A DNA stretch of 64,000 nucleotides, taken from an uncultured Ectothiorhodospiraceae bacterium. Lineage in GTDB: Bacteria > Pseudomonadota > Gammaproteobacteria > UBA6429 > Thiohalophilaceae. The DNA lies in assembly GCA_947259575.1 (NCBI GenBank), contig CAMYMU010000032.1, forward strand, positions 62,001 through 126,000, written 5' to 3'. Below the pieces are notes generated by a model. It saw only the letters and a program-made list of their open reading frames with translations, had not been told where the DNA came from and ran no database searches. Of this stretch, positions 9,425 through 13,723 are shown piece after piece. The translations under genes and the position numbers were made by a program. Positions within the stretch are counted from its first letter, which is position 1; the number at the start of each line of letters is the position of its first letter.

Positions 9425-10657
9425 ATGCAGCCTGCACAATTTTGGAAACGCGCCATTGTCTTTGTGGATATGGATGCCTTTTTTGCCTCCATTGAACAAC
9501 TCGATGAACCTTCGTTGCGCGGGCAACCTGTTGCAGTGACAAATGGTTTGCGTGGTACCTGTATTATTACCTGTTCTTATGAAGCGCGTGCCATGGGTGT
9601 CTATACCGGGATGCGCGTTCGTGATGCACAGCAGTTGTGTCCACGTTTGATACAACGGCCGGCTCGCCCAGAACGCTTTGCTCAGATTGCAACGCGCATG
9701 ACCGATGCCTTACGTGAAAGGATTAGTCCAGACCTGGAAATATTTTCTGTCGATGAAGCTTTTCTTGATGTCACACACTGCCAGAAACTATTAGGCACGC
9801 CAGAGTCTATCGCTCGCCAGACCAAGGCACTAATCGAAGAAGTAGTAGAGCTGCCTTGTACCGTGGGAGTGAGTGGCGACAAGACGACGGCGAAGTACAT
9901 TGCCAAGTCTCACAAGCCAAATGGTGTGGGTGTACTACCTCCCTGGCAGGCAGGAGAGCATTTAAAGGATGTACCTGTTACTAAATTGTGTGGCATCGCC
10001 GATGGCATTGGCCGTTTTCTGGCGGCGCGCGGTGTTTATACCTGTGGCGACATGGCATCTTTACCGGTTGGTGTGCTGGGCAAACGCTTTGGTTACCCGG
10101 GCCGACGCATATGGTTAATGTGTCAGGGGCTGGATCCAGATCCAATACACACTAGTGTCGCTGCACCCAAAACCCTGGGGCATGGCAAGGTCATGCCACC
10201 GGATACAAAAAATGCTGATGTCCTGATCATGTACCTCTCTCACATGAGTGAAAAGCTTGCAACACGTTTGCGCCGCCACTCTTTGCAGGCCAAAAGTTTT
10301 TCGATTGGTTTATTAACTCGCTACGGTTGGCTCGGTGATACCTATCGAAGCACATTGCCCAGTAACGATAGTAAGTTGATCATGAGTCTGACGCGACAGA
10401 TGTTGGATGAGCACTGGCGTGGTGAAGGCATCTCACAAGTGCAGATTACCGCGCTGGATCCTTGCCCTGTAGACGGTCAGTTGGAACTGTTTGGTGACGA
10501 TCAGCAAGAGCGACAGGCGGTGAATAAAGCCGTGGATACCGTTAACCAGCGTTATGGTGAACTGACATTGGGGCCGGCACGTTTGTTAAAGCGCTCTGAC
10601 ATGCCGAACGTGATTTCGCCCGCCTGGAAACCGAACGGGCCACGGCAAACTATTTAG
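9425..10657 (+). CDS. dinB: Y-family DNA polymerase IV (DinB)
   Basis: 410 residues. The catalytic acidic residues are present: VDMD (D15, D17) and SVDE (D110, E111), with F20 as the steric gate equivalent. The thumb/HhH region (KLCGIADGIGRFLAARGV) and the little-finger domain follow. QLELF at 352-356 is a sliding-clamp binding motif, here about 50 residues from the end and not at the very C-terminus. Polymerase IV extends DNA past lesions. No LexA-type CTGT-N8-ACAG box is visible upstream. The stop overlaps the convergent next gene by four bases. Confidence 0.95.
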   Translation: MQPAQFWKRAIVFVDMDAFFASIEQLDEPSLRGQPVAVTNGLRGTCIITCSYEARAMGVYTGMRVRDAQQLCPRLIQRPARPERFAQIATRMTDALRERISPDLEIFSVDEAFLDVTHCQKLLGTPESIARQTKALIEEVVELPCTVGVSGDKTTAKYIAKSHKPNGVGVLPPWQAGEHLKDVPVTKLCGIADGIGRFLAARGVYTCGDMASLPVGVLGKRFGYPGRRIWLMCQGLDPDPIHTSVAAPKTLGHGKVMPPDTKNADVLIMYLSHMSEKLATRLRRHSLQAKSFSIGLLTRYGWLGDTYRSTLPSNDSKLIMSLTRQMLDEHWRGEGISQVQITALDPCPVDGQLELFGDDQQERQAVNKAVDTVNQRYGELTLGPARLLKRSDMPNVISPAWKPNGPRQTI

Positions 10658-11910
10658 AAGTACCAGCTCAGATAACCCTTCGCCACATTTCTGCTAAAAG
10701 TTTCCGTCGTAAAGTTTGATCGATTATCGGTGTAGGTATAAAGCACACCAAGCTCGAGCCCAGCCGTGGGTGTGGTGTATAAATTAAATCGATACTGAAA
10801 GCGATCATCGTCACGGATCAAACCCGATATAGATTCGGCTTCATAGACACTATTGCGAAACAGGATCTCGTTTTTCATTTTTAATGCAGCGGGTAAAGAA
10901 TTCCTGAGTCTGAGTCGGATACTGTGACGCGTCGGCGAGTAGTTGGTCGTTGCTGTATCTTGCCGATCATTGGCTTCATATTCATAACGGACTCGTATCT
11001 GGCCAACCCTCGTAGTTGTTAGATACTCTGTACGAAATCGGTGGCGTGTGCCACCAAGGTAGTTATACGAGGGGTTGTCCGATTCAATGTCATTGAATTG
11101 ATAACGGAAGCGCAGATAGTTTCTCTTGTGGGTATAGCGTTTTAGGTCTAAACGTATACCAGATGTTGACTGGTAATCAATTCTGTTGAGTTCACTGGAT
11201 GTGTAGAGCAGTGAGGGCGTAATTCTCCATTTGCCAGTTTTGATTGGAAATGCCAGCGCAGTTCCTAGCTGCCTATAGTCATTGCTATTCTCGGTAGAAT
11301 AATCTTTATTGTAGTAAGAAAACTTAAGATCTATATGCTTAAAAAAAATTTTTAAGTTGGCGTAGGTCTCCAGGAAATCATCGGCTCGCTGTGATGGCGA
11401 GTCGGTTCCTACCTGTGTCACATTGCTGTCGTGGCCGTAGGCAATATTGATACCACCATCAATAAAATTCTTTCGTTTTTTCGTGACCCTATATTTACTG
11501 ATCATCCTGTTGGCCAGTGCGCTGATTTTTGTGTTGCTCGGGTTGCTCGGGTTGCTCGCCGCTTTTTTGAACCACTCGAGCGCCTCTCTTTTCTGCTTTT
11601 GTTTGAGCTTAACCAGACCGAGGTTGTACTGAACGATTGGTTTAAGTTTTTCGCTGGCCAGCGCGCCCTGAAAAGACTTCTCAGCCTGTAAGTACTGGCC
11701 CAGTTTGTAATGACTTACGCCGAGGTTGTATTCGATGACAAGTGGCTTATAGCCGCTCTGCTTAGCTTGATTGAAGTAACGAATGGCTTTTCGGTAATCC
11801 TTAGATTGAAAGGCCTGCATGCCTAAATCAAAGAGGTTAGAGTCGCTGGCAAAGACGGTGGCAACGTTAAAAGTGAAAGCCATAGCGATAATCAATAAGC
11901 GGGATCGCAT
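10654..11910 (-). CDS. TPR protein with C-terminal outer-membrane beta-barrel
   Basis: 418 residues from ATG 11910. A signal peptide ends at about residue 22 (VFASD). Residues 25-130 hold three TPR-like repeats (LGMQAFQSKDYRKAIRYF, YNLGVSHYKLGQYLQAEKSF, YNLGLVKLKQ). The remaining 270 residues alternate polar and aromatic residues in about 14 strands and end in SWYF, the terminal aromatic signature recognised by the BAM machinery. Plan and size recall surface-exposed TPR-porin proteins such as the Slam/DUF560 group, but I cannot confirm membership. It lies 124 bases downstream of the acidic-repeat gene on the same strand. An open frame extends upstream to 11970 but lacks a better start. Confidence 0.85.
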   Translation of the reverse strand: MRSRLLIIAMAFTFNVATVFASDSNLFDLGMQAFQSKDYRKAIRYFNQAKQSGYKPLVIEYNLGVSHYKLGQYLQAEKSFQGALASEKLKPIVQYNLGLVKLKQKQKREALEWFKKAASNPSNPSNTKISALANRMISKYRVTKKRKNFIDGGINIAYGHDSNVTQVGTDSPSQRADDFLETYANLKIFFKHIDLKFSYYNKDYSTENSNDYRQLGTALAFPIKTGKWRITPSLLYTSSELNRIDYQSTSGIRLDLKRYTHKRNYLRFRYQFNDIESDNPSYNYLGGTRHRFRTEYLTTTRVGQIRVRYEYEANDRQDTATTNYSPTRHSIRLRLRNSLPAALKMKNEILFRNSVYEAESISGLIRDDDRFQYRFNLYTTPTAGLELGVLYTYTDNRSNFTTETFSRNVAKGYLSWYF

Positions 11911-12034
11911 GGGTATAACAGTCTCCAACACACAGAAAATGGTCTGTCCAAACAGACAGACCACATACATTACATTATATATTTGTTATCGGAAAGTGGT
12001 GCTCGGCACGTTTCCAAACTTGGATGGCGCTGAG

Positions 12035-12433
12035 TTAAGAAGAGGATTCCGGTGTCTCCTCAGGCTCATCTACTTCATCAGGTTCATCTACTTCATCAGG
12101 TTCATCTACTTCGTCAGGTTCATCTACTTCGTCAGGTTCATCTACTTCATCCGGTTCATCTACTTCATCCGGCTGGTCTTTTTCATCGGGCTCGTCTTTT
12201 TCATCCGGCTCGTCTTTGCCTTCGCCGTCATTATCATCACCAGAGCTTTTATCATCCTTACTGTGGTGTTCCAACTCGGGCAACTCGATCTCATTGGTGA
12301 TCTCACGCGCATCTTCACTACGAATCACATCCATGGTGATATCAGAGAGGTCGGGTTTATCGACTGCATAGACAACCGGGCTGGTCAGTGCCAGCAATAG
12401 TGCGATAGTGAATGTGCTCATCAAGTGTTTCAT
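12035..12433 (-). CDS. Exported acidic DEPDEV-repeat protein
   Basis: 132 residues. A signal peptide ends at about residue 23 (VVYAVD). About 35 residues of ordinary sequence follow, then a highly acidic, low-complexity tail built from six-residue units of the type DEPDEV/DEPDEK, about ten in a row, ending TPESSS. The tail has a high negative charge and would be disordered; it could bind cations such as calcium or act as a spacer. It is the third gene of a group with an ECF sigma factor and its anti-sigma factor, 22 bases after the latter, so it is probably a member of that regulon. No family recognised. Confidence 0.85.
   Translation of the reverse strand: MKHLMSTFTIALLLALTSPVVYAVDKPDLSDITMDVIRSEDAREITNEIELPELEHHSKDDKSSGDDNDGEGKDEPDEKDEPDEKDQPDEVDEPDEVDEPDEVDEPDEVDEPDEVDEPDEVDEPEETPESSS
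12062..12217 (-). repeat. 18-bp tandem repeat within acidic protein gene
   Basis: The DNA coding for the acidic tail is a tandem array of an 18-base unit (on the plus strand: ttcatctacttcatcagg and close variants). Units differ at a few third positions, for example cttcgtc versus cttcatc. Such arrays change copy number easily, and a whole-unit change keeps the frame. Confidence 0.85.
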
Positions 12434-12455
12434 ATGTACTCCTAGTAAAATCCTT

Positions 12456-13157
12456 TTAACTAGTCAAAGTTGCTGTGTAGTGCGAAGAGGCGGGTATGGC
12501 CACCAGGTTTAATTGAAATACGCGAGTTTGCCCTTCGTGGGTAATGGTCGCATATAGAGTGCCGCCATTCTTTTCTTTTACGATCAACGGCAGGGACAGT
12601 TTGTTGCTGCCCTGTTTGAAGCTGGTTTTCCATTCCAGACTTCCACGGTTAGGGTACCCCGCAATCTCGGTGCCCTCTGGTAATTCAATTCTAATCTGAG
12701 CATCTTGAAGCTGGCTCGGACTGTTAAACACCAGGTCTACCTTGCGAGTTTGTAGTGGTTGTAGCTCGACCGTCATTATTGGCATGGCATCGCCTTGCTC
12801 TAATGACGGGCTGTTGAAGACAAACAGTACGGCAAAGATGGCCAACGCCGCAGTACTGAAACCGGCCGCAAACCAGATGGGAATATGGTGAGATTTGTGT
12901 TGGCGGACTTTTTCCGGCTTTTTGTCCAGGAATGCCAGGACTCGCTTTTCGTAACCGGCGCGGGGTTCGGGAATATCCAGGCTGCTCAGCTCCTCCAACA
13001 GGGCTTGCGCAGATTGGTATTCGGCCTGACAAGGCCCGCACTCCCGTAGGTGTTGGGCCATAGCTTCCCGCTCCTGGGTGGCTACATCACCATCAAGATA
13101 CTCGTCGAGTCGGGCTGTTACGGATTCACAATTCATTGGCATAGGTCTCATAGTCAT
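12456..13157 (-). CDS. Zinc-finger anti-sigma factor
   Basis: 233 residues. The N-terminal 50 residues are a ZAS (zinc-containing anti-sigma) domain: H36-x3-C40-x2-C43 in HLRECGPC, with C10 before it. A single membrane helix lies at about 88-109 (IPIWFAAGFSTAALAIFAVL) and the C-terminal half would be periplasmic and beta-rich. The start ATG overlaps the sigma factor stop (ATGA), so both are co-translated. It should hold the sigma factor inactive at the membrane until an envelope signal releases it. Confidence 0.93.
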   Translation of the reverse strand: MTMRPMPMNCESVTARLDEYLDGDVATQEREAMAQHLRECGPCQAEYQSAQALLEELSSLDIPEPRAGYEKRVLAFLDKKPEKVRQHKSHHIPIWFAAGFSTAALAIFAVLFVFNSPSLEQGDAMPIMTVELQPLQTRKVDLVFNSPSQLQDAQIRIELPEGTEIAGYPNRGSLEWKTSFKQGSNKLSLPLIVKEKNGGTLYATITHEGQTRVFQLNLVAIPASSHYTATLTS

Positions 13158-13723
13158 AGGTTAACACGACGAATTTCCCGAAATGGTTCCCTTTGTAATA
13201 CAGTCCGCAGGGTTTTTCGAGTGCGGTGTAAGCGGGATTTTAGCGTACCTAGTGGGGTTTCCATGATTTCTGCGATCTCGACCAGGGTGTGACCCTCGAC
13301 GTCATGTAGCAAAACCAGCATTTTTTGCTCAATAGAGAGCTCATTCAGTGCATTTTCCAGCTTTTCGCCCAGTCTGTCGCGTTCTACGGCCTGAATGGGG
13401 TTGGGATCGGCATCTTCCAGCTGATTGATAGTGTCAGTCTCATCTTCGTAATTGGGGACACTGGGATTACGCTTCTGCCGGCGCGTAAAGTCGATAAACT
13501 GGTGGTAGAGGCTCTTCAGCAGCCAGGTTTTGGCACGTTCCAGTGAAGCCAGATCGATGTCCTTGTTGTATAAGCTCATCAATAGCTCCTGCACCAGGTC
13601 TTCTGCATCATCGGGGTGACCGCAGAGACGATAGGCGTACTGGTACAGAGTGGTCAGGTGCGGGCGGATCTGTTTTTCAAATCGCTTTTGCCGGGAACCT
13701 GAAAATAGCTGATTTAGTTTCAT
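13154..13723 (-). CDS. ECF-type RNA polymerase sigma factor
   Basis: 189 residues. Region 2 is seen in TLYQYAYRLCGHPDDAEDLVQ (the DAEDLVQ motif) and region 4 in the helix-turn-helix EIAEIMETPLGTLKSRLHRT. There is no region 1.1 or 3, typical of ECF sigma factors. It is the first gene of a group with a zinc anti-sigma factor, an exported acidic-repeat protein and probably the TPR/barrel protein. The stress sensed is unknown. I found no obvious GAAC-type autoregulatory promoter in front. Confidence 0.95.
   Translation of the reverse strand: MKLNQLFSGSRQKRFEKQIRPHLTTLYQYAYRLCGHPDDAEDLVQELLMSLYNKDIDLASLERAKTWLLKSLYHQFIDFTRRQKRNPSVPNYEDETDTINQLEDADPNPIQAVERDRLGEKLENALNELSIEQKMLVLLHDVEGHTLVEIAEIMETPLGTLKSRLHRTRKTLRTVLQREPFREIRRVNL

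Follow-up and report, generated by a model that had tools for sequence, protein, structure and literature searches.

Genes at the locus

Four consecutive genes on the minus strand of the window (the whole 64,000-nucleotide stretch of DNA that was analysed) encode an ECF sigma factor (SIG), a zinc anti-sigma factor (ANTI), a small exported protein (X) and an exported TPR and beta-barrel protein (BAR), all present where an initial annotation of this DNA had placed them (Table 1). The sigma and anti-sigma identities proposed there are borne out by Pfam, with Sigma70_r2 and Sigma70_r4_2 found in SIG and zf-HC2 in ANTI. SIG consists of sigma regions 2 and 4 only and scores over the cut-off of TIGR02937 (sigma70-ECF). 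ANTI matches the RsiW profile as well as zf-HC2, the latter above its cut-off; zf-HC2 is found in 24/24 ANTI homologues, and residues H30, C34 and C37 are invariant across 24 aligned rows. An ATGA overlap between SIG and ANTI had also been described, which holds if the first of several ATGs is taken, but is doubtful because the ANTI homologues start at M-x-C, corresponding to the ATG at 13136 in the window. This likely start leaves about 17 bases between the end of SIG and ANTI; in a set of 75 loci the two genes are a median of 12 bases apart.

Table 1. Coordinates of the genes and features of the locus, in window positions.
Feature	Position	Strand	Basis
SIG, ECF sigma factor, 189 aa	13154..13723	-	Pfam Sigma70_r2 (5.2e-12), Sigma70_r4_2 (6.8e-15); conserved in module
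ECF-type promoter element (candidate), GGAACC-N16-CGTGTT	13163..13190	-	Within last SIG codons, placed to drive ANTI and X
ANTI, zinc anti-sigma factor, ~226 aa from likely start	12456..13136 (ORF open from 13157)	-	zf-HC2 (5e-8)
X, small exported protein, 132 aa	12035..12433	-	ORF; homologues sit between ANTI and BAR or after ANTI
X conserved core, DLSDITMDVIRSEDAREITNEIELP	12278..12352	-	Part of X that is conserved
X variable acidic repeat tail	12038..12277	-	18-base tandem unit; tail composition over 61 homologues
Terminator-like hairpin, 11 pairs	11939..11964	-	X-BAR gap; folding and comparison over modules
BAR, exported TPR and beta-barrel protein, 418 aa from likely start	10654..11910 (ORF open from 11970)	-	Pfam TPR, homologues, model
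BAR TPR part, residues 24-140	11491..11841	-	Pfam and model
BAR 14-strand barrel (predicted), residues 149-417	10660..11466	-	Model and structural neighbours

ANTI is predicted to join its N-terminal zinc domain to a C-terminal periplasmic Ig/macroglobulin-like domain, a fold supported by a structure model and by fold matches. In neither ANTI nor X did Pfam detect an RseA or RseB/MucB domain (E up to 1). DUF3379 (PF11859) matches 8 of the 24 ANTI proteins (best 1e-5), but not the window's own ANTI, and the literature search turned up no paper under that family name.

The start of X resembles a signal peptide, no lipobox Cys was seen by eye, and Pfam finds nothing in the protein at E up to 1. 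Conservation is concentrated in a core of ~25 residues behind the signal peptide, and the acidic tail, earlier taken as the key element of X, does not hold that place: of 63 tails, 56 carry a net negative charge and the others are neutral or positive (in a separate composition count, 4 of 61 homologues had net positive tails). The tandem array described in the tail is present in the window, where an 18-base unit is repeated at 12060-12215, giving about nine six-residue DEPDEV-type units.

Linkage of the four genes across genomes

When the same gene order was searched for in other bacteria the gene set was recovered, also beyond the Gammaproteobacteria. Among 24 relatives found through ANTI alone, BAR adjoins ANTI in 21 of the 22 genomes that could be judged. 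A class sample of 232 yielded 25 genomes with a strong match to ANTI, and 24 of these carry BAR on the same contig. A collection of 75 SIG-ANTI loci was made non-redundant by dropping those with an identical last 150 ANTI residues, with the near-identical pairs L115/L116 (one MAG), L107/L130, L108/L112 and L221/L222 still included. Sixty-two of the 75 have the order SIG-ANTI-X-BAR, in agreement with the proposal of one conserved four-gene set, and five, from Desulfobacterales, read BAR-SIG-ANTI-X, with the order changed and the set kept. As 29 of the 75 came from a search with BAR, and some of a group of 45 were collected with BAR matches already known, BAR content in these loci is partly by construction, and the linkage therefore rests on the two ANTI-searched counts.

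The linkage spans Gammaproteobacteria, one Betaproteobacteria MAG and Desulfobacterales, with the flanking genes of the module read at a few loci, and the joint occurrence of the four genes is far beyond chance. Two culturable species, Microbulbifer hainanensis and Marinobacter shengliensis, are among the carriers of the module. That these are unrelated genes sharing one direction is extremely improbable: a terminator-like hairpin does precede BAR, but both ANTI-searched counts and the breadth of the linkage, with altered order in Desulfobacterales, contradict such a reading. X or BAR apart from the sigma pair, the case named as refuting the grouping, exists but is uncommon. X stands beside BAR with no SIG or ANTI nearby at L121 (on the same contig as L077), L109 and L119, and BAR stands alone at L195. 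At L068, BAR is absent and X remains with SIG-ANTI.

A candidate promoter inside SIG and a hairpin before BAR

The element GGAACC-N16-CGTGTT has a single match in the whole window. Of the 75 loci, 64 have an ECF-type element where SIG meets ANTI, whichever reading frame it falls in (a few frame classes are artefacts because some SIG ORFs, as at L069 and L117, are broken or misread), and the strict element was not found at the remaining 11 junctions. Codon choice is bent to the element, whose Arg codon is CGT in 29/30 cases, as compared to 103/594 elsewhere in the same genes. With an element matrix trained on the ANTI sites, none of 369 control genes reached 8 bits, and only 2 of 70 regions upstream of BAR matched, so that BAR generally has no element of this type of its own. 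The same element stands upstream of some unlinked DUF5666 lipoprotein genes. It was not found before the DUF5666 genes of the same-genus genomes G001-G003, in a scan for which L287 offered no fair test, as its piece has no gene start.

The five terminator-like sites in the region are no more than shuffling gives (mean 3.8), but the gap between X and BAR folds with z = -3.6 in the window. A terminator-like hairpin lies between X and BAR in 25 of 60 modules, the window included; shuffles that preserved single-base composition only gave 0.15 on average. Such a hairpin probably often cuts BAR off from the upstream genes. With this hairpin before BAR and the internal promoter element before ANTI, the single simple transcript first envisaged for the four genes is not supported.

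BAR and its relation to X

BAR had been described as a TPR protein ending in SWYF, and both its TPR family matches and the SWYF end were seen. By prediction the TPRs are followed by an outer-membrane barrel of 14 strands (mean pLDDT of the model 92.7). OmpG and CymA are its best structural neighbours (Z 21.7), and among the Foldseek matches listed BcsC comes first, with PelBC and a polysaccharide secretin also present. The putative barrel porin family BBP2_2 (PF10082) matches 12 of 22 BAR homologues (best 2.1e-7), the window BAR having no match to it at E up to 1; nor does Pfam give BAR a TonB-dependent receptor match at that limit. Of the most conserved barrel positions, 23/26 lie at the outer mouth. 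A conserved arginine ring there was considered as a path for the acidic tail and is not argued, because the outer half also holds all ten listed Asp/Glu-majority columns.

The OmpG/CymA likeness and the conserved outer mouth could suit a solute channel, in which BAR would be an OmpG/CymA-like pore with a TPR docking domain, its conserved mouth would serve as a binding or gating site, X would be its periplasmic chaperone or buffer, and SIG would answer a solute or metal and not X. We consider this unlikely. It does not account for L068, where X remains with SIG-ANTI although BAR is missing, or for the joint divergence of the X core and the ANTI Ig-like domain. Once SIG distances are taken out, over 54 loci, X-core distances follow those of the ANTI Ig domain (0.34), the barrel (0.42) and the TPR part (0.27), and do not follow those of the ANTI zinc domain (0.02), in a test open to distortion by unequal rates and alignment quality. 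Charge matching between the X tail and BAR (raw rho -0.57 for the barrel and -0.46 for the TPR part, n=63) was dropped as evidence because independent contrasts gave r = -0.10 (p 0.44) and -0.21 (p 0.10). Similarity between the X and ANTI profiles was without significance in hhalign, and mimicry of an ANTI Ig-domain strand by the X core, which share IELP, reached a probability of 4.8%, a hint at most.

A comparison of the barrel with Slam/DUF560 had been suggested. In the profile HMM comparison, PF04575 gave no match to BAR at E up to 1, matching in the genome of the window only at the C44 paralogue, and it is absent from the 25 of 53 families listed for 22 BAR homologues, of which one or two might still match it. 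PF24575 (TPR_Slam) reaches 17 bits in BAR, below its cut-off of 35.2. No Slam structure is among the structure matches listed, which carries no weight either way. BAR might nonetheless bring X to the outer membrane, or all the way through it, in a Slam-like manner. X would then act as a charged protein on the surface or in released form, and SIG-ANTI would only switch the pair on. The loci where X and BAR occur together outside the sigma pair fit such secretion, as do the modelled TPR and 14-strand barrel, the weak match of 10 of the 22 homologues to TPR_Slam, and a hairpin behind X that would leave X more abundant than BAR. The missing PF04575 match and the lack in X of any Pfam-detectable substrate barrel domain speak against it, as do L068 and the conservation of the X core instead of the presumed cargo tail, and on balance we regard secretion as a possible but rather doubtful explanation.

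Proposed mechanism

Tentatively, we favour SIG-ANTI-X-BAR as a self-regulating ECF envelope-signalling module; the gene set does look like the envelope-type system first suggested. SIG itself would read the promoter at the SIG/ANTI junction, and the zinc domain of ANTI would hold SIG. The X core would touch the predicted periplasmic Ig-like domain of ANTI, and X would also touch BAR, by its core or its tail. The state of BAR, or of the surrounding outer membrane, would then set the action of X on ANTI and hence the amount of free SIG, which would raise ANTI and X as feedback and, to some extent, BAR and certain unlinked envelope lipoproteins. X would occupy the place that RseB/MucB has in the rpoE/algU operons, though it is a minimal protein, unrelated to them, whose partner would be a dedicated barrel. 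The ANTI-BAR linkage, the kept gene set, the junction promoter, the partnerships of X and the co-divergence of its core count for this signalling model. Counted against it are the junctions without a strict element, the scarcity of such elements before BAR and their absence before the same-genus DUF5666 genes, the hairpin, and the non-significant X-ANTI profile similarity.

That BAR moves or anchors the X tail, as first imagined, is possible. In a more specific version, which we regard as a long shot, the disordered tail would be threaded through the 14-strand barrel with the core left in the periplasm, and where barrels are blocked or missing the core would bind the Ig-like domain of ANTI. 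In this way one small polypeptide would let an ECF sigma factor read, from the cell surface, whether barrels are occupied, and the sigma factor would reset itself via a promoter inside its own coding sequence.

Comparison with known systems

The four genes look like an undescribed circuit for sensing or adjusting the outer cell surface. In line with the earlier remark that no such system had been described, a literature search, with most subscription journals and all preprints beyond its reach, found no paper on the SIG-ANTI-X-BAR set. The module is a compact and widely kept candidate system, separate from the RpoE and FecI patterns, by which the outer membrane could signal to a sigma factor. 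X defines an exported protein family with only about 25 conserved residues, selection keeps the candidate promoter within coding sequence in two phyla, and the DNA signature of the element points to regulon members such as the DUF5666 lipoproteins.

The Slam barrel has 14 strands, as does the BAR model. The Slam system (type XI secretion, DUF560; PMC8406197) likewise has a TPR part ahead of its outer-membrane barrel and a small exported protein as neighbour. The module differs in that BAR gives no PF04575 match, X has no TbpB-type barrel domain and a sigma pair is present. BcsC, PelBC and PgaA, the exopolysaccharide exporters, have TPRs and a barrel in common with BAR, whereas the module has no polysaccharide genes and the BAR barrel fits the 14-strand OmpG/CymA best. 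RcsF with OMP barrels and IgaA (PMC7553776, PMC4942254) resembles the module in its idea, that a barrel holds a small exported protein which signals to a regulator in the inner membrane. The module differs in that X has no evident lipobox Cys and the output would be an ECF sigma factor.

FecA-FecR-FecI brings together an outer-membrane barrel, an anti-sigma factor and an ECF sigma factor in cell-surface signalling. The module has the same combination, but BAR is no TonB-dependent receptor by Pfam and ANTI is of the zf-HC2 type. In rpoE-rseA-rseB-rseC and algU-mucABC, a sigma factor, a membrane anti-sigma factor and an exported protein follow in this order under autoregulation. The module shares this order and, presumably, autoregulation with such operons, of which rpoE-rseA-rseB-rseC is named in PMC4336711. 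It departs from them in an ANTI with zf-HC2 and a predicted Ig-like domain and in an X unrelated in size and sequence; it adds a dedicated barrel, and its promoter element lies inside the sigma gene.

Conservation of the four-gene module

The window is part of contig 32 in the 3.45 Mb source genome (G000), and as the initial annotation described, four genes follow one another on its minus strand: those for an ECF sigma factor (SIG), a zinc anti-sigma factor (ANTI), a small exported protein (X) and a TPR and beta-barrel protein (BAR). Pfam searches assigned sigma regions 2 and 4 to SIG, a zf-HC2 zinc finger to ANTI and TPRs to BAR, and matched no family to X. The DEPDEV tail ascribed to X proved to be encoded by an 18-base tandem unit, and BAR does end in SWYF; the proposed ATGA overlap of SIG and ANTI is probably a start-codon artefact, because ANTI homologues begin M-x-C. 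A plus-strand DinB/UmuC-like polymerase gene overlaps the end of BAR tail to tail by 4 bases.

Features of the module, its promoter and related loci
Feature	Sequence	Strand	Position
SIG	window	minus	13154..13723
Promoter element	window	minus	13190-13163
ANTI (M-x-C start at 13136)	window	minus	12456..13136
X	window	minus	12035..12433
Tandem repeat of X tail	window	minus	12060-12215
BAR	window	minus	10654..11910
DinB/UmuC-like polymerase gene	window	plus	9425-10657
SIG-ANTI-X without BAR	L068		8188-9896
X and BAR without SIG/ANTI	L121		1960-7362
Ser-Pro repeat protein to BAR paralogue	L079		5138-7923
DUF5666 gene with element	L256		2795-4117
Element near GGDEF-like protein	L257		about 2988

Among 58 relative genomes, the source included, searches found ANTI in 24 and BAR in 23, and the two were neighbours in 21 of the 24 ANTI-bearing genomes. 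In G006 and G023 a contig boundary lies between the two genes or behind them, and G046 (locus L068) has no BAR across more than 9 kb downstream of ANTI. A class-wide sample of 232 genomes gave 42 with an ANTI profile match at 1e-6; the match was strong (1e-27 or better, a cut-off chosen here) in 25 genomes, and 24 of these had BAR on the same contig. BAR occurred in 28 of the 232, four lacking a strong ANTI match (G037, G158, and G132 and G179, both with short or broken contigs). Only 4 of 299 genomes in a phylum sample were positive at 1e-20, source genome included, and the distribution is therefore patchy. A BAR scan of named genomes placed the module, as labelled in their records, in MAGs of Ectothiorhodospiraceae, Chromatiales, Acidiferrobacterales and, once, Betaproteobacteria, recovered Microbulbifer, Marinobacter, Zhongshania and Candidatus Thiodiazotropha, and reached Desulfobacterales (phylum Thermodesulfobacteriota); at its weak end, 10 of 54 loci had no module part besides a TPR or barrel match.

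In line with the proposal that the four genes form one group, 62 of 75 non-redundant SIG+ANTI loci keep the order SIG-ANTI-X-BAR; against it stand L121, L109 and L119, where X adjoins BAR with neither SIG nor ANTI nearby. Another five of the 75, all Desulfobacterales and two from the same MAG, read BAR-SIG-ANTI-X. Three (L101, L204, L220) were listed without X, which was found on inspection; four hold SIG-ANTI-X only, with L071, L076 and L130 reaching contig ends and L068 not; and L201 stops at a contig edge. BAR stands by itself at L195. At L121, on the same contig as L077, a response regulator and a sensor kinase gene lie divergently upstream of X and BAR and are possibly their replacement regulator.

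A probable promoter element at the SIG/ANTI junction

A count of gapped words in the sequence upstream of SIG picked out GGAAC followed at 16-17 bases by CGTG. GGAAC-N(15 to 17)-CGT lies upstream of ANTI at 62/74 loci, SIG at 29/72, X at 4/71 and BAR at 3/70; of 3750 random segments of 280 bases, 89 contain it. The element GGAACC-N16-CGTGTT occupies the SIG/ANTI junction in 64 of the 75 loci, with identical spacing in 62; the window's copy, within SIG's final codons, is the sole match in 64 kb. Its place relative to the SIG coding sequence varies: within it in frame 0 (29 loci), 1 (4) or 2 (3), across the stop in 11 and behind the stop in 17. In 30 sigma proteins picked at the protein level by a C-terminal EP...R, the Arg was CGT in 29 (103 of 594 other Arg codons in the same genes), the Glu was GAA in all 30 (249 of 446 in the same genes) and the preceding base was G in 29, indicating that the element is maintained as DNA. 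A matrix trained on ANTI sites scored at least 8 bits before ANTI (67/74), SIG (33/72), X (5/71), BAR (2/70) and no control gene (0/369); the window's SIG has no such upstream site. That module and promoter are real is highly probable.

A hairpin (perfect stem of at least 8 pairs, T-rich tail) separates X from BAR in 25 of 60 loci, where shuffled sequences gave a mean of 0.15 and never more than 1; none of 71 ANTI-X junctions has one. SIG would drive ANTI and X strongly, and BAR would be expressed by read-through or from another promoter.

Candidate regulon members

Across the 58 relatives, GGAACC-N-TT-N13-CGTGT occurred 33 times versus 4 for the reversed pattern, and 24 of the 33 sites are at the module by inspection. 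Two of the nine others precede DUF5666-type lipoprotein genes (G000, G028; PF18914 tested on the G000 gene). Another (G000:C44, L079) stands before genes for a small exported protein of Ser-Pro repeats (signal RRKALSRLG), a PqqD/HprK-like protein and a BAR paralogue without TPRs that PF04575 matches at 3.6e-5, perhaps a second pair of barrel and low-complexity protein under the same sigma. The remaining six (G052, G040, G013, G012, G010:C28, G021:C3) share no theme; some are intragenic, and G052 and G040 lack the module. At G021:C3:783961 (L257), in a genome that carries the module, the element lies 36 bases 5' of a protein that is GGDEF-like by eye. In 21 further module genomes, 16 sites were spread over 12 genomes, against 0 for the control pattern. 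Three of them lie away from the main locus: before a SIG on another contig, before a lipoprotein gene and before nothing recognised.

Among 15 DUF5666 genes from 13 genomes, five (G000, G028, G025, G014, G005; loci L256, L280, L282, L288, L291) carry the exact element, starting 61-151 bases before the first ATG, one carries it with one mismatch, and nine, including those of congeners G001-G003, have none upstream. It precedes the gene in four of seven module genomes; in G025, 77% complete, the module was undetected. Judged by their upstream sequence, the lipoproteins with the exact element are likely regulon members.

The proteins X, ANTI and BAR

Following the signal peptide, X homologues share a core of ~25 residues (consensus D-LDDVTM-VI, ending IELP). 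Their tails vary freely (DEPDEV, DDK, REQEREHE, ENEV, NDSRDDA and others), with a median of 100 residues (range 47-240) and 35% D/E, 14% K/R and 9% hydrophobic residues in 61 tails; 56 of 63 are net negative. X remains when either partner is missing and was for that reason taken as the link between them. In single cases, the tail at L068 (no BAR) is different, non-repetitive and not of the acidic-repeat kind, and L121 (no SIG/ANTI) keeps a charged repeat tail with the IELP half of the core unrecognisable.

The predicted structure of ANTI (36 sequences, mean pLDDT 83) begins with a helical domain and ends in an eight-strand sandwich, with a stretch of poor prediction between them; in the PDB it comes closest to macroglobulin domains from complement C3 and related proteins (Foldseek, E from 2.2e-6, TM 0.34 across the whole query). 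The model of BAR, built from 39 sequences, combines TPR helices with 14 long strands (mean pLDDT 92.7). OmpG and CymA top VIA-align for the barrel (Z 21.7, rmsd 3.1-3.7, 259-270 residues), designed TPRs (Z 18.0), PcrH and SycD (Z 17.7) match the TPR part, and BcsC is the first Foldseek row. In the suggested profile comparison with Slam/DUF560, PF04575 did not match BAR; of 22 homologues, 12 were matched by BBP2_2 and 10, weakly, by TPR_Slam. Of the protein's 45 most conserved positions 26 belong to the barrel, and with the N-terminus assumed periplasmic 23 of these fall in its outer half, which holds arginines R316, R328, R352, R366 and R370 and also all ten Asp/Glu-majority columns.

With SIG distances removed, X-core distances across 54 loci track those of the ANTI Ig domain (0.34), barrel (0.42) and TPR (0.27), with 0 of 300 permutations as high; those of the zinc domain of ANTI they do not track (0.02, reached in 110 of 300 permutations). 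This pattern fits periplasmic contacts, though unequal rates or saturation could mimic it. X may tentatively be regarded as the link, at somewhat less than even chances. Charge matching of the X tail with BAR failed its test and was rejected. Threading of the tail is unlikely; it could instead be secreted or act as a spacer.

A literature search found no description of this gene set, in agreement with the initial annotation. The set resembles rpoE-type operons of sigma factor, anti-sigma factor and periplasmic co-regulator, in which X would occupy the place of RseB; unlike these, the module adds a dedicated barrel, BAR.
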